Below, piece after piece: positions 1 through 8,168 of a stretch of 8,168 bases of DNA. The DNA comes from an uncultured Verrucomicrobiota bacterium. Its GTDB lineage: Bacteria > Verrucomicrobiota > Kiritimatiellia > RFP12 > UBA1067. Each line of letters opens with the position of its first letter. Position 1 is the stretch's first letter. The position numbers and the translations under genes are program-made. The stretch is from positions 1-8,168 of the forward strand of contig CAMPAF010000128.1 in assembly GCA_946631535.1 (NCBI GenBank), written 5' to 3'. The notes beneath the pieces are model-generated. The model saw nothing but the letters and a program-made list of their open reading frames with translations, had not been told where the DNA came from and searched no databases.

Positions 1-570
1 TTCTTCGTCTTCTTCCTCATGCGCCCCGACATGCGCGGCAACGACTACGTCAGCCAGCTGCCGTTCCTGAAGGACGAGACAAAGGGCTTCGTCGCAAGGC
101 AGATCGACGCGTTCATCGACATCCTCGTGAACTTCTTCCAGCGCCAGGTCGTAATCTGCCTGATTGAGGGAATGCTCTACGGCACCGGCTTCATGCTCGT
201 GGGCCTGCCTTACGGGTTCGTCATCGGCTTCCTTCTCGGCGTCATCAACCTGGTGCCTCTCCTCGGCTCTGTCCTCTGCCTGCCGATCGCGGCATCGATA
301 GCCTTCTTCGGCGACGGCGGAAGCAGCCTGCGCCTGATAGGCGTCCTCTCCGTCTGGCTCACGGGCCAGTTCCTCGACGGATACCTCATCACGCCAAAGA
401 TCCAAGGGGAGAAGACCGGCCTCGGCTACGCGGGCGTCATATTCAGCTTCTTCTTCTGGGGCGTCGTTTTCCACTCGATGCTCGGGCTCCTCCTCGCCAT
501 CCCCCTCAGCGCCTTCTGCGTCGTCCTCTGGCGCGCACTGAAGGACCGCTACATCAGGGGCGTCATCTGA
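1..570 (+). CDS. AI-2E family transporter, C-terminal part (5' end outside window)
   Basis: This is the last 189 residues of a multi-pass inner-membrane protein; the reading frame is open from base 1, so the true start lies upstream. The features match the AI-2E/YdiK/PerM-type permease family (Pfam PF01594): a central amphipathic stretch, then a hydrophobic run holding GVINLVPLLGS, which corresponds to the family's conserved G-[IV]-x-N-[LF]-[IV]-P-x-[LIVF]-G segment, then a QFLDGYLITPKIQG segment matching the usual Q-x-[IL]-[DE]-x-x-[IVL]-x-P-x-[IL]-x-G motif, and a last hydrophobic hairpin ending in LLLAIPLSAFCVVLWR. Family members export or exchange small solutes, but substrates vary (autoinducer-2, Na+/H+ exchange and others), so none can be assigned. 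The gene converges on the minus-strand operon with only 3 bases between the two stop codons, so it is probably not functionally tied to it. Confidence 0.86.
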   Translation, partial: FFVFFLMRPDMRGNDYVSQLPFLKDETKGFVARQIDAFIDILVNFFQRQVVICLIEGMLYGTGFMLVGLPYGFVIGFLLGVINLVPLLGSVLCLPIAASIAFFGDGGSSLRLIGVLSVWLTGQFLDGYLITPKIQGEKTGLGYAGVIFSFFFWGVVFHSMLGLLLAIPLSAFCVVLWRALKDRYIRGVI

Positions 571-573
571 CCT

Positions 574-1941
574 TTATCGCCCGAACGCCAACCGCGGCCA
601 GCTCGGCAGGAACTCCGCAACGCCAGGCAAGACGGTCAGACCTTCCGCGTCTTCCGCCGGACAGGCTTGCGCGAACTCGCCGCAGACCACGCTGACAGAC
701 GTCTTCTTCCCGCGCGCCGCCAGCCAATCTTCCGGTCGGTTCGGCGAAAGCACGCGCACGTCGGCAAGCGACGTGAATCTCGACAAGACCGCCGGCCCCG
801 CATCGGCCTCCGCGCCGCAGATCGCAAGCAGACGCACGTCCGCAGGCACCGCCGCCAAGTCGCGCGCAAGGCCATATGCCCGACCGTTTCCATCTGGCGT
901 CTTCATGAAAGCCCGCAGCGCACGCCCGCATGCGGCACCTCCCATCGTCTTCGCATCACAGACTATCCAACCGTCCGGCACACCGTCTCCCGCTGTCAGG
1001 CGCGCGCCGTCTGCCGACCTGTGGATCGGCAAGGCTTCCGCCGGACGGCATGCGATGCCGAGAACGACAAAGACACTCAACAGCAGTCCGCTCGCCAGCA
1101 ACGCCGCCGCCACGACCAGACGCTTCCGCACCGCATCGGCAGCGAAGAATGTCCTGATCGCCGGCACTAGCGTCGCAACCGGCACCACGCCAACGCGCCA
1201 GTCCTCCGCCACCGAGCTGAAGAAGGCCGCCGTGGCAAAACTTGTCCATACGGCAAGCGGCAACGGGTCACCGCGCTCCTTCCATCGCAGGACTCCAAAG
1301 CCGAATGCGAACATCCACGCGCAGACAAGCGCAAACCGCCCCACCCATCCGAACTCTACCAGCCATGTGAAATGGCTGTTGACGAGCGTGCGGTAGCGCT
1401 CGTGCCTTTCTAGCGGCTGATACCAGCTCATGAAAGCGTCGCCCGCAGAGCCATGCCCCCAGCCTCCCGGCGCGTCCACCATCATGCTCGGCACGTTCCG
1501 CCAGATCGCGAGACGGTTGCCCACGGAGGCGTCGTCCGCCGGAGAGCTTCGCGCAACCCGCCCGGCGAAGCCCGTCCACGCCGCCGTTCCCGCCATCAGG
1601 AGCGCAACGAAAAGGATGGGCCACCATCTTCGGAACTTGCGCTGGCCTTTCCACGACCCGATGAACAGAATGGACACTCCGAGGAGAAAGGCGACCAATC
1701 CGCCACGTGAAAAGGTGTGGACGAGACAATAGCCGGCTGCGGCGGCGGTCGCGACTAGCACACCCATCCCGATGCGGTCGCGCAGGAGCGCGACCCTCCC
1801 GCGTGGGGCGCGCAGGAGCGTCCACAGCAGCAGGACAAGGACGAAGGCGAGCACGGCCGCCGCCTTGTTGGGGTTGTCCATGCCGAACGACCAGCGCGAC
1901 ACGCCCTGGTAGAAGAAGGCATCTGCGTCAAGGAACATCAT
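574..1941 (-). CDS. O-antigen ligase-like membrane protein (Wzy_C core only) with extra C-terminal domain
   Basis: This is a 455-residue membrane protein, last gene of the operon. Residues 20-245 match the O-antigen ligase/polymerase core (Wzy_C, PF04932): GMDNPNKAAA (20-29), a membrane span, then HTFSRGGLVAFLLG (75-88) with the family's SRG signature. A large extracytoplasmic loop follows with GNRLAIW (141-147), GGWGHGS (159-165) and NSHFTWLVEFGWVG (188-201), whose Arg and His correspond to residues usually essential for glycan transfer. Further spans lie near 200-217, 228-244, 250-268 and 276-296. The start is the first ATG of an ATGATG pair and overlaps the upstream stop by four bases; its Shine-Dalgarno is weak (GAGG 13 bases away). 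Two oddities stand out. The four to six N-terminal membrane spans normal for WaaL/Wzy proteins are absent. Residues 297-455 form an added soluble alpha/beta-type domain (IVCDAKTMGGAACG at 326-339, LLAICGAEAD at 371-380, SVVCGEF at 417-423) that looks like a degenerate hydrolase. Substrate unknown. Confidence 0.68.
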   Translation of the reverse strand: MMFLDADAFFYQGVSRWSFGMDNPNKAAAVLAFVLVLLLWTLLRAPRGRVALLRDRIGMGVLVATAAAAGYCLVHTFSRGGLVAFLLGVSILFIGSWKGQRKFRRWWPILFVALLMAGTAAWTGFAGRVARSSPADDASVGNRLAIWRNVPSMMVDAPGGWGHGSAGDAFMSWYQPLERHERYRTLVNSHFTWLVEFGWVGRFALVCAWMFAFGFGVLRWKERGDPLPLAVWTSFATAAFFSSVAEDWRVGVVPVATLVPAIRTFFAADAVRKRLVVAAALLASGLLLSVFVVLGIACRPAEALPIHRSADGARLTAGDGVPDGWIVCDAKTMGGAACGRALRAFMKTPDGNGRAYGLARDLAAVPADVRLLAICGAEADAGPAVLSRFTSLADVRVLSPNRPEDWLAARGKKTSVSVVCGEFAQACPAEDAEGLTVLPGVAEFLPSWPRLAFGR

Positions 1942-2888
1942 TCGGCAATCCAGGCCTCGCAAACCGCCGCCGGCAGCAGCATCCGGAACTCAAGCGGCAC
2001 GCACAGGTAGTCGAACTTCGAGTAGACCGCCTGGTTGAAGATGTCCGCGACAGACGCGGAAGAGGAAAAGATGTCCGCCCAGTCGGGCCTGGCAGGCTTG
2101 CCGCCGTTGAGGCGCGTGGCGCGCGCCTGCTCCGCGAGCGCGTAGTCGAAGCAGGCCAGCCCGAGCGCCGTCACCTTAGCGTTGCCCTCGTGCCCCAACC
2201 CGGGATATGCCTTGTAGACGATCGGGTAGAACAGGTCGCGCGCGGCCTTGAAGAACCGGCGCGAGCGCGCATAGCCCAGCTCGTTCTCGCCGGTCGTCAC
2301 GCACCAGAGGAGCGACGCGCCTTTTTTTGTCGGGACGTCGAAGCTGCTGGCGATGTGGATATGCACGGCCAAGAAACGTTCCGGACGCCGCAGCGCCAGA
2401 CGCTGAGCGTACTGCGCCGCACCCGAAGAGCCTTTCATCAGGTACCCTGACTCGGGGATGCCGTACTTCTTCACGAAGAAGCTGATGCCTGCGTCCCATG
2501 CGTTCGCGACGAGGTCGAAATCCGCATCGACCTTCTTCGCCTCCGCACGCGGGAGCTCGTCCCAGTTGCGCGAAGGGTCCCACAGGCGGTGCGCCCCCCA
2601 CGCCACAACAGCGAGGTTGCGCTTCCGCGCGAACTCGAGCGCACGATCTGCCGAACGCTTTTCGGCGGTTCCGAGGAGCTGCGCGCGTACTTCCTCTGGG
2701 CTCTTGGCCAGCAGGCTCAGGCAGAGGACTCCGTCCGCCCGTCCGCCCTGCGGCATCATCAGGAACAGGGTCAGCTGCTCGTAGTTCTTTAGCTTCGTCT
2801 TGACAGTATGTGAAACTATATCGCCAGACGCGAAAGGCGCCAGGCTGACTATCAAAGCGGTCGCCGCAAGGGCGGCGAGCTGGCTCAC
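1938..2888 (-). CDS. Exported alpha/beta-hydrolase-like protein
   Basis: This encodes 316 residues starting at a GTG that overlaps the precursor-peptide stop (GTGA); an AGAGGA Shine-Dalgarno sits 9 bases upstream (2898-2903). The frame stays open further upstream to 3047, but that stretch is an Arg-rich out-of-frame reading of the peptide gene, whereas starting at this GTG gives a clean signal peptide (hydrophobic residues 4-19, likely cleaved near FA-SG). The mature part has an alpha/beta-hydrolase layout: a strand NLAVVAWGAH (91-100), a nucleophile-elbow candidate GSSGA at 153-157 (Ser155 in a small-x-Nu-x-small pattern) followed by the helix AQYAQRLALRRPERF, a strand plus acid-loop candidate LLWCVTTGENELG (193-205, Glu rather than the more common Asp), and a His candidate in YPGLGHEG (228-235). 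It resembles secreted esterases, PHB-depolymerase-like or peptidase-like proteins, but no specific family is clear. Its position right after the peptide suggests it could process or bind the modified product outside the membrane; this is inference. Confidence 0.66.
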   Translation of the reverse strand: MSQLAALAATALIVSLAPFASGDIVSHTVKTKLKNYEQLTLFLMMPQGGRADGVLCLSLLAKSPEEVRAQLLGTAEKRSADRALEFARKRNLAVVAWGAHRLWDPSRNWDELPRAEAKKVDADFDLVANAWDAGISFFVKKYGIPESGYLMKGSSGAAQYAQRLALRRPERFLAVHIHIASSFDVPTKKGASLLWCVTTGENELGYARSRRFFKAARDLFYPIVYKAYPGLGHEGNAKVTALGLACFDYALAEQARATRLNGGKPARPDWADIFSSSASVADIFNQAVYSKFDYLCVPLEFRMLLPAAVCEAWIAE

Positions 2889-3157
2889 TCCACGTGATCC
2901 TCTTTGCCGCCGGCAGAACTGCAGGCGGGCGGCGGGGTCTGGTCCTGCCCGATGCGCGCGTTGGACTTGCAGGCGGGCGGCGGCTGGACCGTATCGGCCT
3001 TCGCGCCGTTCCCGTGGCACTGGTCGGCCTTGCCGTGTCCGTTGCACGGATTGCCGTTGTTGCCAGAACCAGGACCGTGCGTACCGGCAACGAGCGCGAA
3101 GTTGGCCAGCGTACCAGCCGCCAGCAACGCACCCGTGAACTTTCTGCGTGTTGTCAT
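2885..3157 (-). CDS. Candidate RiPP precursor peptide with Tat-like leader and four Cys-x(6-7)-Asp modules
   Basis: This is a 90-residue protein directly after, and overlapping by ATGA, the radical SAM maturase. The ATG at 3157 has a strong AAAGGAG Shine-Dalgarno 10 bases upstream (3168-3174). Residues 1-25 form a twin-arginine-type signal: TRRKF at 3-7 (consensus [ST]RRxF), then a weakly hydrophobic Ala/Leu/Gly stretch to about residue 25. The remaining 65 residues are Gly/Pro/Ala-rich, lack ordinary domain character and contain exactly four Cys: C38, C47, C63, C79. Each is followed by Asp: C38-D45, C47-D55, C63-D71, C79-D87. Modules 1 and 2 share a C-[NH]-G-x-G-(A)-K-A-D pattern; modules 3 and 4 share PPPAC and lie 16 residues apart. 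Gene order, size, repeated Cys modules and lack of homology fit a substrate of the neighbouring SPASM maturase. I do not recognise a named precursor family. Alternatively it could be a small exported Cys/His metal-binding protein, but the coupling to a maturase makes a substrate role more likely. Confidence 0.77.
   Translation of the reverse strand: MTTRRKFTGALLAAGTLANFALVAGTHGPGSGNNGNPCNGHGKADQCHGNGAKADTVQPPPACKSNARIGQDQTPPPACSSAGGKEDHVE
2920..2983 (-). repeat. 16-base direct repeat in the precursor peptide gene
   Basis: The 16-base sequence TGCAGGCGGGCGGCGG (plus-strand reading) occurs at 2920-2935 and 2968-2983, offset by 48 bases, or exactly 16 codons. On the coding strand both copies encode the PPPAC segment that opens modules 3 and 4. 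The exact DNA identity amid divergent flanks suggests a recent module duplication, or selection on both copies. Confidence 0.85.
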
Positions 3158-4563
3158 TCTGTCTTTTCTCCTTTGCCGTGACCGACCGAGCCGGCCACGG
3201 CGAGATAGTATACTCCCTCTTTGACCCAAGCGCAAGTGTCTTCGCACATGCGCGACGTCATCCGGAAAGTCCCGTCCGAGCGCGCGATCTCCCATGGGCA
3301 CGGCCCGCCGCAGACGCGATACGCCCAGCAACTCCCGCACGTCCCTTTCATAGCGGCGCGGTAGTCGCGCCAGAACGCCTCGCACTTGCCCCTGTCCAGA
3401 CCGTCCGCCAGCCGCCCAAGCGCCCACTTCTCCATCCCGACGAACCTGTGGCACGGATAGAGCGTGCCGTCCGGCCCCACCGCCATCGCCCCGTGGCAGG
3501 CGCCGCACCGCAATCCAGGCACCTTCTCGGGATGCGTCTCCTCGCCTTGGAACTGTCCGATCTCCTCGAACGGATCGTAGATCGGCGTGCGGCCGGCAGC
3601 CCGCTCGGCAAGCATCCAGGGAATCACCTCATCGCGCATGCACCTGCGGAACGCGCGATCGTCTTCCACGGTGAAGTCGCACGCGCTGGGGAACGTGGGG
3701 TTGTACACTGTTCCCAGCACCACGCGCGAAACGCCGAAACCGGCAAAGAAGCGGATGAGGTCCATCGCGTTCGGAGCCGGGTGGGCCATCGTGCACCGCA
3801 CCGTCACCCGCGCGCCGCGCGCCAGCAGCAGGCGGATTCCGGCGGACGCCGCGGCGAACGATCCGTGTCCGTCGCGCGTCGGACACTGCCCGTCGTGCAG
3901 CGCCTGCGGCCCGTCCAGGCTCGCCATCAGGCCGAAGTTGTTATCGACTATCAGCGCCGCCATTTCTTCGTCCATCAGCGTGGCGTTCGTCGTGATGGAA
4001 TAGCCGGCCTTCTGTCCGCGCGCCGCGGCCAGCTCGTTGCAGCGCGCCACAACCTTTCTGATCACCGGCTTGTTCAGGAGCGGCTCGCCGCCGAAGAACG
4101 TGACGCGCACGCCCACTTTCGGGTCGGCGGCGGCGAACAGGCGCTCCACGGCCAAAAGCGCAGTCGCCTCGTCCATCAGCCCCTTGTTCGGCAGCTCGTC
4201 GCGGCAAACTCCGCAGTAGCAGTAGCGGCACGCCAGGTTGCAGCCAGACGCCACCGAGAGCACGAGCGTGTTGCACGGCCCGGAAAACCTAGCGTCAAGC
4301 TCCGCCTCGAATGCGGCATCGTCAAGGACCGGCTCCTCGGCCGGCTCGAAGAACCCGTCCGCCTCGAGAGCAGCGACGTCGTCCAGCACGCCGGTCTCGC
4401 CAGGATGGCTCGCGCGGAACGCCGCCTCCGCATCTGCCGCCGACATTGTCTCGCGCAGTTCCAGCAGTTCGTACGCCGCCGGACTCACCCGGATGAACCG
4501 TCCTGAATCGAGATGGTAGGCGAAGCATGCTTCTTTTTCGCGGAAGAGGTAATATGGCTTCAT
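3154..4563 (-). CDS. Radical SAM/SPASM peptide maturase with PqqD-like N-terminal domain
   Basis: This 469-residue enzyme starts at the ATG overlapping the upstream stop (ATGA), with AGGAGGT 9 bases upstream (4573-4579); the in-frame extension to 4626 lacks this support. Residues 1-75 (YLFREKEACFAYHLDSGRFI, then helices ending EADGFFEP) look like a PqqD-type winged-helix recognition element, the domain that binds RiPP leader peptides. The radical SAM core runs from about 97 to 300: C108-x3-C112-x2-C115 for the SAM-binding 4Fe-4S cluster, FFGGEPLL at 156-163, and SITTNATLM at 189-197. The SPASM domain is complete: C356-x9-G-x4-C371, then C409-x2-C412-x5-C418-x3-C422 and C440, enough for two auxiliary clusters; C353 and C444 are extra. 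Enzymes of this class use a 5'-deoxyadenosyl radical to form thioether or C-C crosslinks in peptides (PqqE, QhpD, sactipeptide and ranthipeptide maturases). The likely substrate is the next gene's product. A sulfatase-maturase-like activity is less likely because no sulfatase is present and a PqqD-like domain is. Confidence 0.95.
   Translation of the reverse strand: MKPYYLFREKEACFAYHLDSGRFIRVSPAAYELLELRETMSAADAEAAFRASHPGETGVLDDVAALEADGFFEPAEEPVLDDAAFEAELDARFSGPCNTLVLSVASGCNLACRYCYCGVCRDELPNKGLMDEATALLAVERLFAAADPKVGVRVTFFGGEPLLNKPVIRKVVARCNELAAARGQKAGYSITTNATLMDEEMAALIVDNNFGLMASLDGPQALHDGQCPTRDGHGSFAAASAGIRLLLARGARVTVRCTMAHPAPNAMDLIRFFAGFGVSRVVLGTVYNPTFPSACDFTVEDDRAFRRCMRDEVIPWMLAERAAGRTPIYDPFEEIGQFQGEETHPEKVPGLRCGACHGAMAVGPDGTLYPCHRFVGMEKWALGRLADGLDRGKCEAFWRDYRAAMKGTCGSCWAYRVCGGPCPWEIARSDGTFRMTSRMCEDTCAWVKEGVYYLAVAGSVGHGKGEKTE
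3155..3174 (-). promoter_or_regulatory. Ribosome binding site of the precursor peptide gene
   Basis: AAAGGAG (3174-3168, minus strand) lies 10 bases before the ATG at 3157 and inside the last codons of the maturase gene. It fixes the start of the 90-residue peptide and rules out the longer upstream readings. It is among the better Shine-Dalgarno matches in the operon, consistent with a substrate peptide needing higher output than its enzyme. Confidence 0.8.
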
Positions 4564-5783
4564 TTCGCCGGCACCTCCTCGCCGTTCACGCGCCGACGGA
4601 ATATCGTGCCGGACGTGTCCAGCCACACCTCGTCCGTCTTGGTCTCTTCGCCCGTGCGCGTGATCCGACGATAGACCACGCGCCCGGCCTCGTCGTAGGT
4701 GTAGTCGGTGCGGACGCCGGACCCGTCACTCCCGGTCTCCTTCGTCCAGCGCACGCGTCGATACGCGAGCGGTCCCGAAGTGAACACCTTGTGCGCCCGG
4801 CTGGTGCCGTTCGTGAATTCCTGCACGAACATCCCCGTCTTCCTGTTGAAGGAGTACGACTCGCGGCATCCGTCCGACCGGTGCCGCGCGAAAGACGGCT
4901 GGCCGTCCTCGTTCTTAGGCATCCCTATCGTGTATGCCCAGTCTCCGCAGGCAAGTATCTTTCGCGTGCGCGGATCCCACATCCAGCGCATCTCGCCGGC
5001 CGAGAAGAACGCCGTTCCGCGTTCGCCGCCGTATGCGAACTGCAGGAGGCCGTCAGAGGTCTGCAATGTCGCCAGGCTCCTCTCCTGCGACGACGCCAAG
5101 GACGATGATGCCCCCTGCACGCCAAAGGCGACGGCAGGGCGGCAAGTGGCCACGACCTGCGAGCGGCCGCCGTTGAACCGGAACGTAACGCGGTCCTCTG
5201 GAGACGTCTCCCGCGTCACCTCCAGCAGCGTCTTTCCGCGAGAGACGATGCGGTCCGCGGAACGCCCCGTGTACTTGATCTCGAAATCTCCCTCCTCGCA
5301 CGACATGCGCACGAGACGCCCCTGCCTGAAGTGGAACTCGGACTTCGGACCGCCGTCGTGCGGATCGGCCGTGACGCGGATCGCGTCGCCCTTGCAGACC
5401 GCCGCCCAGGCGGAACCGCCCGTCAGCACGCTGTCGTCGCCCGGCGCCGCGCGCACGAAGATCCGCAGGTAGCCGTCGGGCTGATAGAACCCCCACCTGC
5501 GCTCGTCGAGCGGAACAAACCGAGATTCGAGCGCAGGGACGGACCATCCAAATCCAAACAACGGCGATCGCTCGGTCCTGGCTGACGACCAGTAGGCGCA
5601 GATAGGCCAGCCGCCCGCGTCGCCAAGCGGCTGTATGTGGAGCGCCTCGCCGGAGACACTGGTCCCCTCGTAGGGGCCGCGCAGATCGTCCAGTCCGGCG
5701 AATGGCAGGCTCGCCCCTTCTGCGGACAGCAGCGTCCACAGGCAAAAGGCCAAGGCGATCCAACTTTTCAAATGTCCGGTCAC
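4560..5783 (-). CDS. Secreted YD-repeat / RHS-like protein, small
   Basis: This 407-residue protein is the first gene of the operon. Its GTG start lies 9 bases after a good -10 box, leaving no room for a Shine-Dalgarno. Residues 1-24 form a signal peptide (basic start, hydrophobic IALAFCLWTLLS, likely cleavage after SAEGA). The body is rich in beta-strand patterns with aromatic and charged alternation. SPLFGFGWSVPALESRF resembles the G-x-GW segment that opens RHS/SpvB-type repeat regions, and YTYDEAGR at 361-368 is a canonical YD repeat. Between them are strands such as FHFRQGRLVRM and FEIKYTGR, which look like degenerate YD units. RHS proteins usually exceed 1,000 residues and encapsulate a C-terminal toxin; this one has neither the size nor a toxin-like tail, so it is probably not a polymorphic toxin. 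It may be a secreted beta-rich scaffold or binding protein. Its stop overlaps the maturase start (ATGA), tying it to the peptide system. Function unknown. Confidence 0.75.
   Translation of the reverse strand: MTGHLKSWIALAFCLWTLLSAEGASLPFAGLDDLRGPYEGTSVSGEALHIQPLGDAGGWPICAYWSSARTERSPLFGFGWSVPALESRFVPLDERRWGFYQPDGYLRIFVRAAPGDDSVLTGGSAWAAVCKGDAIRVTADPHDGGPKSEFHFRQGRLVRMSCEEGDFEIKYTGRSADRIVSRGKTLLEVTRETSPEDRVTFRFNGGRSQVVATCRPAVAFGVQGASSSLASSQERSLATLQTSDGLLQFAYGGERGTAFFSAGEMRWMWDPRTRKILACGDWAYTIGMPKNEDGQPSFARHRSDGCRESYSFNRKTGMFVQEFTNGTSRAHKVFTSGPLAYRRVRWTKETGSDGSGVRTDYTYDEAGRVVYRRITRTGEETKTDEVWLDTSGTIFRRRVNGEEVPAK
4561..4579 (-). promoter_or_regulatory. Ribosome binding site of the maturase gene
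   Basis: AGGAGGT (4579-4573, minus strand) lies 9 bases before the ATG at 4563 and within the end of the YD-repeat gene. It selects this ATG over the in-frame upstream start at 4626 and supports translational coupling at the ATGA overlap. Confidence 0.8.
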
Positions 5784-5822
5784 GGTTTCGCAATCATATC
5801 AGATTCCCCCTTCTCCCGTCAA
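5781..5822 (-). promoter_or_regulatory. Promoter of the five-gene peptide operon, predicted leaderless
   Basis: On the minus strand, TTGACG (5822-5817) is followed after 18 bases by TATGAT (5798-5793), which is preceded by TGA, giving a TGn-extended -10. Only 9 bases separate the -10 from the GTG start at 5783, so transcription should begin within a few bases of the start codon. Its -35 region lies in the space the divergent promoter for the 5856 gene would use, so the two could compete for RNA polymerase or share a regulator. No clear operator palindrome is seen. Confidence 0.72.
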
Positions 5823-5838
5823 TCGCGCGAGCGAATTG

Positions 5839-5858
5839 TGGTATAATTGCCGCGCATG
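5839..5858 (+). promoter_or_regulatory. Extended -10 promoter for the 5856 gene, predicted leaderless
   Basis: TGGTATAAT at 5839-5847 is a perfect -10 hexamer with a TGn extension. No convincing -35 hexamer lies 16 to 18 bases upstream, which the extended -10 may compensate for. The ATG begins 8 bases after the hexamer, at about the expected transcription start, and no Shine-Dalgarno is present. Confidence 0.74.
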
Positions 5859-6962
5859 AGCGACGAGGACCAAGACATTGACCTTGATGAATCCTCCATC
5901 AGAGAGGAGGAGGTCGAGGAAGAGTCCATAATCCCGGAGGAAGACTTCCGGGAAGCCATTGCCGTCTGCCGGAAAGATCCACAGCTCAACCGCCTGTTCG
6001 AGATGGCGCCGCCCGGCGCCAAGCTCTTCATCGGCCTCGGCTTCTACTCCACGCATTTCGGCGACAAGGTGGATCCGCGCCAATACGCGGAGTGCCAGTC
6101 CGAGATCGAGCCGTCACTCACGCCAATCGACCTCAAGTACCTCATCCGCTTCGAGCGCGACAAGAACACCAAGCAGTACCTGCGCGAACTCCTCGCCCAA
6201 CGCGAGTCCGAAGAGGCCGCGGCGGAAGAGGCGCCTGCGGAGACGCCCGATGCGCCACTGTCCATTCCGAAGCGGAAGCGTCGGCGGAAGATTCCCAAAG
6301 CCGACCTCCATTCCGAGGCCGCATCGGAAGAACCGGGTGCCGGGATTCCAATTCCATTCAAGATCGCCGCCATCGTCGCGATCCTGCTCGGCGGCGCGTT
6401 CGTCATGTACGTTGCGACAAGGCCGTCCGCACCGCAACCAGCCGTGCGCCAGCAAGCCGAGACGACGCCCGTCGCCCTCGAACAGGACGACAAGCCGCAA
6501 ACCGCCGCAGCGCGTCCTGCCGCGACGCCGAAGCCGCCATCGCGCCCTGGAGGGACCTACGCCCTGATCGATGCGGACGAGGAGGACGCGCGCCTACATG
6601 GCGCAGACGCGCCTGTCGGGATGGAAGAAGTCGCCACGCTCGCGCCTGCCGAAACGAACGCGACCTCGACGGCCGCAACGGAGAACAGGAAACGCCCTGC
6701 CCGCAAGCCACGCGTGGTATTCACCGACGGAAAGAAGATCGTCAAGCGTCCCGGCGGACAGATCGAGGTGCCGCGGGTCTTCTCCTGCGCGGGAGCAGGA
6801 GTCAAGCCCTTCTGGGTGTACGGCGCGCATCCCGAAGCCGACGCCGCACAGGAAAAGAAGGCGCGGGACGAATGGCAGGCGCTCGTGAAACAGGCCCGCC
6901 AGGCCGAAGAAGAAGCGTCCGGTGCCGATGCCAGCGCAGAGTCGGACGCAAATATGCTATAA
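5856..6962 (+). CDS. Acidic single-pass membrane protein of unknown function
   Basis: This encodes 368 residues. The ATG at 5856 is preferred over an upstream in-frame TTG at 5847 because the TTG overlaps the -10 box and would lie upstream of the transcript start. The N-terminal 30 residues are strongly acidic (about half Asp/Glu). Residues 31-110 look folded and helical (DFREAIAVCRKDPQLNRLF, then a stretch near 86-110 ending FERDKNTKQYLRELL). A Glu/Ala/Pro linker and a basic cluster KRKRRRK (139-145) come before one membrane span at about 168-187. A Pro/Ala/Thr-rich linker follows, then a short basic segment with VVFTDGKKIVKRPGGQIEVPRVF (287-309) and a C-terminal Glu/Ala-rich helix. There is no signal peptide, so a cytoplasmic N-terminus and an exported C-terminal part are likely. 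I do not recognise the family. It is upstream of the helicase and divergent from the peptide operon, sharing only the promoter region with the latter. Its TAA stop lies inside the helicase -10 box. Confidence 0.82.
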   Translation: MSDEDQDIDLDESSIREEEVEEESIIPEEDFREAIAVCRKDPQLNRLFEMAPPGAKLFIGLGFYSTHFGDKVDPRQYAECQSEIEPSLTPIDLKYLIRFERDKNTKQYLRELLAQRESEEAAAEEAPAETPDAPLSIPKRKRRRKIPKADLHSEAASEEPGAGIPIPFKIAAIVAILLGGAFVMYVATRPSAPQPAVRQQAETTPVALEQDDKPQTAAARPAATPKPPSRPGGTYALIDADEEDARLHGADAPVGMEEVATLAPAETNATSTAATENRKRPARKPRVVFTDGKKIVKRPGGQIEVPRVFSCAGAGVKPFWVYGAHPEADAAQEKKARDEWQALVKQARQAEEEASGADASAESDANML

Positions 6963-6973
6963 TTATTGCCATG
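6955..6973 (+). promoter_or_regulatory. Extended -10 promoter for the helicase, overlapping the upstream stop codon
   Basis: TGCTATAAT at 6955-6963 again combines a perfect -10 with a TGn extension, and the helicase ATG begins 7 bases later (6971). The TAA stop of the upstream gene (6960-6962) is part of the hexamer. No -35 hexamer is evident. The helicase can therefore be transcribed independently of the upstream gene although only 8 bases separate the two. Confidence 0.7.
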
Positions 6974-8168
6974 CAAGAGAGATTCAAGCGTTCGGGCGGC
7001 GGAAAGGGATTCCGCAGCGGAAAGCCCATGTTCTTCAACAAGCGGAAGCGTCGTCACGGTCGTCCCCACGGCGACCGCAAGCCCCATTTTGGCCTCGCGG
7101 AGCGCGATGCGGCGCCCGCAATCCCGCCATTGCCGGAAACGCCGCCCCCGGCGGCGTTCGAGGCGAACGTGTTCGGCAAGCTGGATATCCGCCTGCAGCA
7201 CGCCGTCGCCGACGCGGGCTATGCTGTGCCTACGCCAATCCAGGAGAAGGCAATCCCCTACCTGCTGGAGGGCCGCGACCTTATCGGCTGCGCCCAGACG
7301 GGCACTGGCAAGACCGCCGCGTTCATGCTCCCTATCCTCAACAAGCTGTTGGCTGGAACAACTAGCAACCAGCCACTAGCCACTAACCACGAAGCAGGGC
7401 ATCCGCGCGCGCTCATCCTCTCGCCGACGCGCGAGCTGGCGGCGCAGACCGCAGAGAACACCGCCACCTTCTCGAAGTACACCGGGCTGCCCTTCGCCGT
7501 CGTGTTCGGCGGCGTCTCGCAGTTCCCGCAGGTGAAGGCCCTGCAGAAAGGCGCCGAGACGGTCATCGCGACGCCGGGCCGCCTGATGGACCTGATGTCG
7601 CAGGGCGTAGTGTACCTCGACCGCGTGGAGATGTTCGTCCTTGACGAGGCCGACCGCATGCTCGACATGGGCTTCCTGCCCGACATCCAGCGCATCATCG
7701 CAAAGCTGCCGCCGAACAAGTCCGTGCCGGGAGCCGACGGCAACGGCCGCCAGACGCGCCAGTCGCTATTCTTCAGCGCCACCCTCTCGCCGGAGATCCT
7801 GAAGCTCGCGGGCGAACTGGTGGTCGACCCGATGCAGATCACCATCTCCCCTGAAGCGCCGACGGTCGAGAAGATCAACCAGAAGTGCATGTTCGTGGAG
7901 AAGGGAAACAAGGACAACCTCCTCATCCACCTCCTCGAAAGCCACAACGAGTGGTTCCGCGTGATAGTATTTGCGCGCACGCGCCACGGCGCGGACCGCA
8001 TCGAGCGCAAGCTGCGCCAGCGCGACATCCCGGTGGCGGCGATCCACTCGGACAAGACGCAGAACCAGCGCACGCGCGCCCTGCAGGGCTTCAAGAACGG
8101 CAAGGTGCGCGTCCTCGTGGCCACGGACATCGCGAGCCGCGGCATCGACGTGCCGGACGTGGACCTCG
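6971..8168 (+). CDS. DEAD-box ATP-dependent RNA helicase, RhlE-like (3' end outside window)
   Basis: The first 399 residues of an RNA helicase that unwinds or remodels RNA duplexes using ATP, typically in ribosome assembly or RNA decay; the frame runs off the window end. After a basic, Gly/Arg-rich N-terminal tail (1-45), the core motifs appear in order: upstream Phe and Q motif (F68 and PTPIQ 87-91), motif I AQTGTGKT (108-115), Ia PTREL (152-156), GG (180-181), TPGR (201-204), DEAD (225-228), SAT (269-271), IV VIVFAR (331-336), and V ATDIASRGID (384-393). Motif VI lies beyond the window. The closest family style is RhlE/CsdA-like; a subfamily symbol is not safe without the C-terminus. Two loops are longer than usual: residues 129-144 between motifs I and Ia, built partly from a 7-base tandem repeat, and residues 250-262 before SAT. 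No Shine-Dalgarno is present and the ATG lies 7 bases after a -10 box, so a leaderless transcript is predicted. Confidence 0.97.
   Translation, partial: MQERFKRSGGGKGFRSGKPMFFNKRKRRHGRPHGDRKPHFGLAERDAAPAIPPLPETPPPAAFEANVFGKLDIRLQHAVADAGYAVPTPIQEKAIPYLLEGRDLIGCAQTGTGKTAAFMLPILNKLLAGTTSNQPLATNHEAGHPRALILSPTRELAAQTAENTATFSKYTGLPFAVVFGGVSQFPQVKALQKGAETVIATPGRLMDLMSQGVVYLDRVEMFVLDEADRMLDMGFLPDIQRIIAKLPPNKSVPGADGNGRQTRQSLFFSATLSPEILKLAGELVVDPMQITISPEAPTVEKINQKCMFVEKGNKDNLLIHLLESHNEWFRVIVFARTRHGADRIERKLRQRDIPVAAIHSDKTQNQRTRALQGFKNGKVRVLVATDIASRGIDVPDVDL
7361..7390 (+). repeat. 7-base tandem repeat inside the helicase gene
   Basis: Four consecutive heptamers, ACTAGCA, ACCAGCC, ACTAGCC and ACTAACC, followed by AC, fill 7361-7390. 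The unit is lower in GC than the surrounding gene. It stays in frame and encodes TSNQPLATNH in a surface loop between helicase motifs I and Ia (residues 131-140), a place where RhlE-type proteins tolerate length variation. Confidence 0.75.

Follow-up and report, generated by a model that had tools for sequence, protein, structure and literature searches.

What does a radical S-adenosylmethionine (SAM) enzyme make of a small peptide whose gene overlaps its own? The question is raised by 8,168 nucleotides from an uncultured Verrucomicrobiota bacterium (class Kiritimatiellia; assembly GCA_946631535.1, contig CAMPAF010000128.1, positions 1 to 8,168), the whole of which is called the window here. 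Its minus strand, to which window coordinates refer unless stated otherwise, carries a gene for a 469-residue radical SAM/SPASM maturase (3154..4563) and, overlapping its end, one for a 90-residue peptide (2885..3157). A first-pass annotation of this DNA had proposed that the two form a new maturase-precursor pair of the RiPP type (ribosomally synthesized and post-translationally modified peptide). By analogy with the biochemistry of QhpD and PapB, we conclude that the maturase probably forms long-range thioethers from Cys to a downstream Asp of this precursor, and we give this reading a probability of roughly 0.68.

The basic layout reported in the first-pass annotation was borne out by the sequence. 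The maturase has an intact CxxxCxxC cluster motif (C108-C115; 4219..4242) and SPASM cysteines from C353 to C440 (3244..3507), and its stop overlaps the peptide start by 4 bases (ATGA). The strong ribosome binding site described before the peptide gene is the Shine-Dalgarno sequence AAAGGAG (3168..3174), of which GGAG was kept in all 11 related loci that were checked. Searches of Pfam and NCBIfam with the peptide returned no family match at E<=1. We found 105 homologues, giving 106 sequences with the window peptide. In comparisons with six orthologues, the ratios of synonymous to other codon changes were 9:3, 15:3, 27:12, 27:12, 20:7, and 19:6. The homologues and this excess of synonymous changes rule out a chance open reading frame (ORF).

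Four Cys modules had also been described in the peptide. The four Cys are present, but the Asp that follows each of them had been missed. Judged by sequence, the repeat unit is Cys-x6..8-Asp, not a plain Cys module. In the window peptide, the modules run from C38 to D45 (offset +7; 3023..3046), C47 to D55 (+8; 2993..3019), C63 to D72 (+9; 2942..2971), and C79 to D87 (+8; 2897..2923). Asp or Glu stood at +6 to +9 of 4/4 core Cys, compared to 1.4 in shuffles (p 0.003). When only Cys after residue 20 were counted, the 106 peptides contained 421 Cys, and 412 of these had Asp at +6 to +9. Four such Cys were present in 89 peptides, with exact Asp offsets of +7, +8, +9, and +8 in 84 of the 89; this exact-offset count leaves out the 17 of 106 peptides that do not have four Cys. 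All four C-to-D pairs were kept in homologue P0106 (38% identity), at +9, +8, +8, and +6. The number of residues separating modules 2 and 3 ranged from 2 to 21, and the remaining linkers were nearly constant. In several homologues, which have 5, 6, or 8 Cys, modules are repeated. The C-terminal residue was Glu in 102 of 106 peptides.

The maturase was compared with known enzymes. The top NCBIfam models were PapB (NF047865; 211.1 bits), QhpD (TIGR03906; 200.9 bits), nif11 (TIGR04064; 177.6 bits), and SCIFF (TIGR03974; 138.6 bits), and the respective curated cut-offs of 340, 453, 518.7, and 425 were missed. Membership in a named family was rejected, as the enzyme scored below the cut-off of 25 out of 25 models listed (71 matched at E<=1). 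In a tree that contained no PapB, the maturase and its relatives formed their own clade apart from QhpD. A genome-contig scan ranked five family members first, followed by loci including that of QhpD, with SCIFF further down. The best match in the PDB, both by sequence and by fold, was 5wgg/5why, which we take to be CteB, a SCIFF maturase. From these comparisons, the maturase is related to PapB, QhpD, and SCIFF maturases. Its residues 1 to 69 (4357..4563) were predicted to form a RiPP recognition element (RRE)/PqqD-like domain, with strands at 4-9, 12-17, and 22-26 and helices at 28-39, 42-52, and 57-68. These three strands and three helices, together with the full-length match to 5wgg including the N-terminal domain, agree with the PqqD-like N-terminus proposed earlier, but Pfam gave no PqqD match, and the domain was seen only within the whole enzyme.

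QhpD and its substrate QhpC provide the closest parallel in spacing. Thioether pairs of QhpC are described in passages of PMC8172795 as Cys7-Glu16, Cys27-Asp33, and Cys41-Asp49 (+9, +6, +8), and its leader is given in part of PMC7876137 as 28 residues. The Paracoccus onchidii QhpC (L060; Pfam QH-AmDH_gamma) has the same letters at the pair positions after a 28-residue leader, and there the qhpD and QhpC genes overlap by 4 bases, as in the window. The two systems thus share the maturase-then-precursor order with a 4-base overlap, QhpD is among the nearest named enzymes, and Cys-to-Asp/Glu offsets of +6, +8, and +9 in QhpC compare with Asp or Glu at +6 to +9 of each Cys in the window peptide. 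They differ in that the window maturase, at 201 bits versus the required 453, belongs to a separate clade, and in that its peptide has no Trp for cysteine tryptophylquinone (CTQ). The partner genes also differ, being Rhs-like, hydrolase-like, and Wzy_C, with no match to a CTQ gamma-subunit. A role of the peptide as a CTQ-enzyme subunit was ruled out by the absence of Trp and of a Pfam gamma-subunit match for the window peptide. We infer that the window system would work like QhpD/QhpC without belonging to it by score, substrate, or gene company.

PapB and its substrate PapA (freyrasin, a ranthipeptide) offer a second parallel: PapB is the top NCBIfam model, and PapA has Cys-Asp thioethers in several modules in a row. 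According to passages of PMC8172795, these modules are Cys-x3-Asp, and PapB fails on Cys-x4-Asp and requires an acceptor carboxylate. The latter need is consistent with the conservation of Asp in the window's peptide family. The window maturase differs from PapB by its score (211 versus 340 bits) and by the gap of 6 to 8 residues in its presumed substrate. As in ranthipeptide systems, the precursor adjoins a radical SAM/SPASM maturase. Among solved structures, the SCIFF maturase is the closest along the entire chain, N-terminal domain included; the window maturase scores 139 versus 425 bits for that family, and its precursor has four Cys instead of six in 45 residues. What is new, on sequence grounds, is the clade of the enzyme, the family of the precursor, and the operon of five genes described below, which the first-pass annotation had not noticed; this part of the proposed new RiPP class stands. 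The chemistry is likely known already, given the kinship of the enzyme with PapB, QhpD, and SCIFF maturases and a C-to-D spacing like that of QhpC. A literature search of open-licence papers found none that describes this system.

Two findings would, according to the first-pass annotation, have spoken against the pair: maturase homologues consistently without an adjacent Cys-module peptide, and a peptide widespread without a radical SAM neighbour. Neither was seen among the 345 genomes of the class that were searched. The maturase was detected at E<=1e-60 in 13 of them, with a Cys/Asp peptide directly behind it in 13/13. A strong peptide match (E<=6.2e-31) was present in 10 class genomes, with the maturase adjoining in 10/10; 12 further weak matches of the same search (E 1.8e-4 to 0.0096) lie outside this count. 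The proposed pairing of a radical SAM maturase and a dedicated precursor is well supported. Ten of the 13 maturase genomes carry a close peptide, and the other three (G187, G229, and G163) carry diverged precursors. The nearest genome (G001) has 40% of the window's sampled 31-letter words, and its maturase is 98% identical to that of the window. In a phylum sample of 387 genomes searched with P0208, five passed E<=1e-60, including two of the class. Distant maturases in other classes, which are not part of the class-only count of 13/13, gave a mixed picture: of four places (one in G366, two in G350, one in G365), one (G366) fits well.

The proposed reaction would proceed as follows. The N-terminal recognition domain of the maturase would bind the peptide leader, and the radical SAM center would take a beta-hydrogen from Asp. 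The auxiliary clusters would then help to couple the sulfur of the Cys 7 to 9 residues upstream to the Asp beta-carbon. The product would contain four consecutive rings (C38-D45, C47-D55, C63-D72, and C79-D87), as made by QhpD on QhpC and by PapB on PapA. The stapled chain would be exported, probably by the twin-arginine translocation (Tat) pathway, and outside the cytoplasm it might be cut, decorated, or anchored by the hydrolase-like, Wzy_C, and Rhs-like proteins. The ring chemistry is modeled on the biochemistry of QhpD and PapB, and the later steps are more conjectural.

The diverged precursors differ widely in size. Directly behind the maturase, G187 has a 97-residue precursor with six core Cys, and G229 has one with two core Cys whose frame overlaps the end of the maturase. 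In G163, a precursor of 370 residues is followed further on by one of 382 residues, each with 29 core Cys, and in G366 a 348-residue precursor with 31 core Cys lies behind the maturase. The 382-residue precursor of G163 (L130, minus strand) stands behind a partial maturase copy (residues 365-453), a tandem duplication. An Asp followed Cys before the next Cys in 28/29, 28/29, 30/31, 6/6, and 2/2 cases in the diverged precursors.

The maturase and peptide genes are the second and third of five adjoining genes, which encode proteins of 407, 469, 90, 316, and 455 residues. Each junction is a 4-base overlap (ATGA, ATGA, GTGA, and ATGA, in this order). On one side the five genes are flanked by a convergent AI-2E transporter fragment, and on the other by divergent genes, one without known family and one for a DEAD-box helicase. 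Because five overlapping genes lie between convergent and divergent neighbors, the maturase-peptide pair forms the middle of a closed operon. By tblastn, all 13 class loci contained the Rhs-like gene and the maturase; 12 had the hydrolase-like gene, 12 the Wzy_C gene (truncated at a contig end in one), and 11 the window peptide. No match to the window peptide was obtained in G229 and G163, both of which have diverged precursors, and only in G163 were the hydrolase-like and Wzy_C genes not found. Twelve of the 13 class loci have the five-gene set, and gene order was identical wherever operon genes were found. The same order occurs in G366, from another class, with two extra genes between the precursor and the hydrolase-like gene; they encode a CarboxypepD_reg protein and a 285-residue protein without Pfam match (L137:8678-9358 and 9377-10234).

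Gene 1 (4560..5783), whose stop overlaps the maturase start, encodes a 407-residue all-beta protein with a signal-peptide-like start, comparable to half of an Rhs shell. Its Pfam RHS_repeat match (E 0.0028) reached 18.5 bits against a cut-off of 22, and homologue P0301 was just over it, with 23 bits. An AlphaFold model (pLDDT, the predicted local distance difference test, 90) retrieved Rhs effectors and teneurins as top Foldseek matches, followed by OspA mutants and Tc shells, all with low TM-scores; the query TM-score was at most 0.44 to any Rhs or teneurin shell among the matches listed. When PDB sequences were searched with the Rhs-like alignment, the one match was at chance level. The protein shares the Rhs-like strand pattern with Rhs/YD-repeat shells (Rhs effectors of the type VI secretion system, Tc toxins, and teneurins), and differs by its length of about 400 residues, with no toxin domain found. 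Of 75 homologues, 66 have 391 to 442 residues; the search was limited to proteins of 0.55 to 1.75 times its length, so that longer Rhs proteins were no candidates.

Gene 4 (1938..2888) starts with GTG within the overlap (GTGA) with the peptide stop and encodes a 316-residue hydrolase-like protein with a signal-peptide-like N-terminus. This overlap and the homologues set the start at 2888. A weak match to polyhydroxyalkanoate depolymerase (E 0.016) came from an over-long ORF (3047..1938) and was discarded. A Pfam search gave no match and a PDB sequence search no meaningful one. An invariant His233 and a G-x-[S/C]-x-A motif in 13 sequences (Cys in 2/13) suggest a secreted Ser/Cys hydrolase. In the homologues of L128 and L129, the presumed nucleophile is Cys, not Ser (G-S-C-G). 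Gene 5 (574..1941), joined to gene 4 by an ATGA overlap, encodes a 455-residue Wzy_C protein (PF04932; E 1.8e-15; 57.5 bits versus a gathering score of 31.7), which places it in the O-antigen ligase superfamily.

The peptide begins with a leader-like, Tat-like segment (residues 1-25, MTTRRKFTGALLAAGTLANFALVAG; 3083..3157). Because of its RRxF motif, the Tat pathway would be the most likely export route; RR is present in the leader of 100 of 106 peptides, and TatC was found in 6/6 genomes tested. However, no Tat model matched the window peptide, and RR is not universal, as L128 and L129 have RK and L137 has no such pair.

We are much less confident of the biological role of the product than of the thioethers. 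A diffusible RiPP antibiotic or signal, with the partners as processing or immunity genes, is a rival on role, not on the bond. Size and architecture are as in many RiPPs; the precursors of up to 382 residues with 29 to 31 core Cys, the lack of Pfam matches to an ABC exporter or a C39 peptidase in the five operon proteins, and Rhs-like and Wzy_C partners suggestive of cell-surface work make such a product doubtful. Because the same kinds of partners accompany precursors with as few as 2 and as many as 31 core Cys, we lean weakly toward a stapled surface or matrix peptide. A still more tentative scheme, rather unlikely in all its parts together, is a dedicated, hitherto undescribed system of Kiritimatiellae and relatives for thioether-stapled extracellular proteins, with 2 to ~31 staples, Tat export, and surface assembly or glycan linking by the Rhs-like, hydrolase-like, and Wzy_C proteins, replacing disulfides in anaerobes. 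The host group are presumed anaerobes, in which such crosslinks would be redox-proof. It is an attractive idea that thioethers, which need no oxidizing milieu, might substitute for disulfides where oxygen is absent. If Cys-Asp thioethers are formed, QhpD-type long-range stapling would not be limited to one amine dehydrogenase subunit and would be a repeatable module, with up to ~31 rings in one apparently secreted chain. It would add a new substrate logic beside QhpC and PapA, link peptide maturation with one Rhs-fold and one Wzy_C protein, and provide a maturase that accepts gaps of 6 to 8 residues, useful for peptide stapling.

Among alternatives to the bond itself, the chain may carry no crosslinks, its Cys and Asp binding metal or its Cys forming disulfides, while the maturase epimerizes residues or acts on another substrate. 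Chains rich in Cys, Asp, and His can bind metal, and the product is a prediction from genes. The gene coupling, the co-occurrence of 10/10 and 13/13, the proximity of the maturase to thioether-forming enzymes, and the survival of both Cys and Asp through divergence render this improbable. Distinctly improbable is a sactipeptide-like reaction, in which the same enzyme would join Cys sulfur to alpha-carbons instead of the Asp beta-carbon. The enzyme superfamily is the same, SkfB and SuiB were among the fold matches, and sactipeptides are mentioned in the title that the depositors gave the best match; yet the best sequence models were PapB, QhpD, nif11, and SCIFF, and the conserved Asp acceptors suit a carboxylate-requiring enzyme. 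Products of QhpD, PapB, and SCIFF maturases are placed with non-alpha-carbon thioethers in passages of PMC8172795.

Several observations weigh against Cys-to-downstream-Asp pairing. In the three long precursors, 26/29, 28/29, and 29/31 Cys have an Asp at -2, compared to 5 to 6 in shuffles, which is the sharper signal, and an Asp-x-Cys bond would fit it too. Each long precursor has one Cys without a following Asp. Against shuffles, Asp or Glu at +6 to +9 did not reach significance in L128 (p 0.14) or L129 (p 0.29), and one L130 precursor of the two gave a weak signal (p 0.02); Cys-to-Asp offsets as short as +3 and +4 occur in L128. The peptide after the distant G365 maturase breaks the rule, and precursor fragments of G350 carry CHTC repeats instead of Cys-x7-Asp modules. 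In the window's own family, the modules are no more constant than linkers 1 and 3 (2 in 87/87 and 7 in 86/87 peptides), and conservation extends to many Gly, His, and Lys positions, so that the spacing alone is compatible with other pairings.

The main alternative pairing is an Asp joined to the Cys two residues later in tiny rings, the Cys-x7-Asp pattern being a by-product of a ten-residue repeat. The -2 signal of the long precursors and the invariant first linker speak for it. In the window peptide, however, Asp is at -2 for 1/4 Cys and at +7 to +9 for all four; C38 has no preceding Asp, D87 has no later Cys, and in L129 Asp is at -2 for 0/2. We consider this pairing very unlikely and retain the Cys-to-downstream-Asp thioethers. 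Cyclophane chemistry on aromatics is unlikely for the window's family, as 102 of 106 peptides have no Trp, Tyr, or Phe after the first Cys; the long precursors have 8 to 10 such residues each.

Further observations were made on related loci. In P0003, P0004, P0005, P0014, P0025, P0047, P0096, P0087, and P0100, modules have undergone in-frame duplication or loss, as if through recombination between repeats. P0104 is a maturase start fused to a peptide end, and P0089 a peptide start fused to a Wzy_C-protein-like end; a deletion inside the operon or an assembly fault is possible in both. In one G350 contig (L138, minus strand), the precursor is broken by an IS110 transposase gene, with the CHTC repeats beyond it; the other has a partial maturase and no peptide was seen there. 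The G365 maturase frame, read from the first usual start codon, has no N-terminal domain. Five related loci came from assemblies titled uncultured Verrucomicrobia (two), Lentisphaerae, Kiritimatiellae, and "bacterium"; five of the 13 class loci are apparently the same records as these (L026-L030). The RUG isolate codes of related assemblies presumably denote the rumen. The divergent gene without convincing family encodes a 371-residue protein (5847-6962, plus strand), and 6 of the 13 class loci have a homologue of this protein close to the operon.

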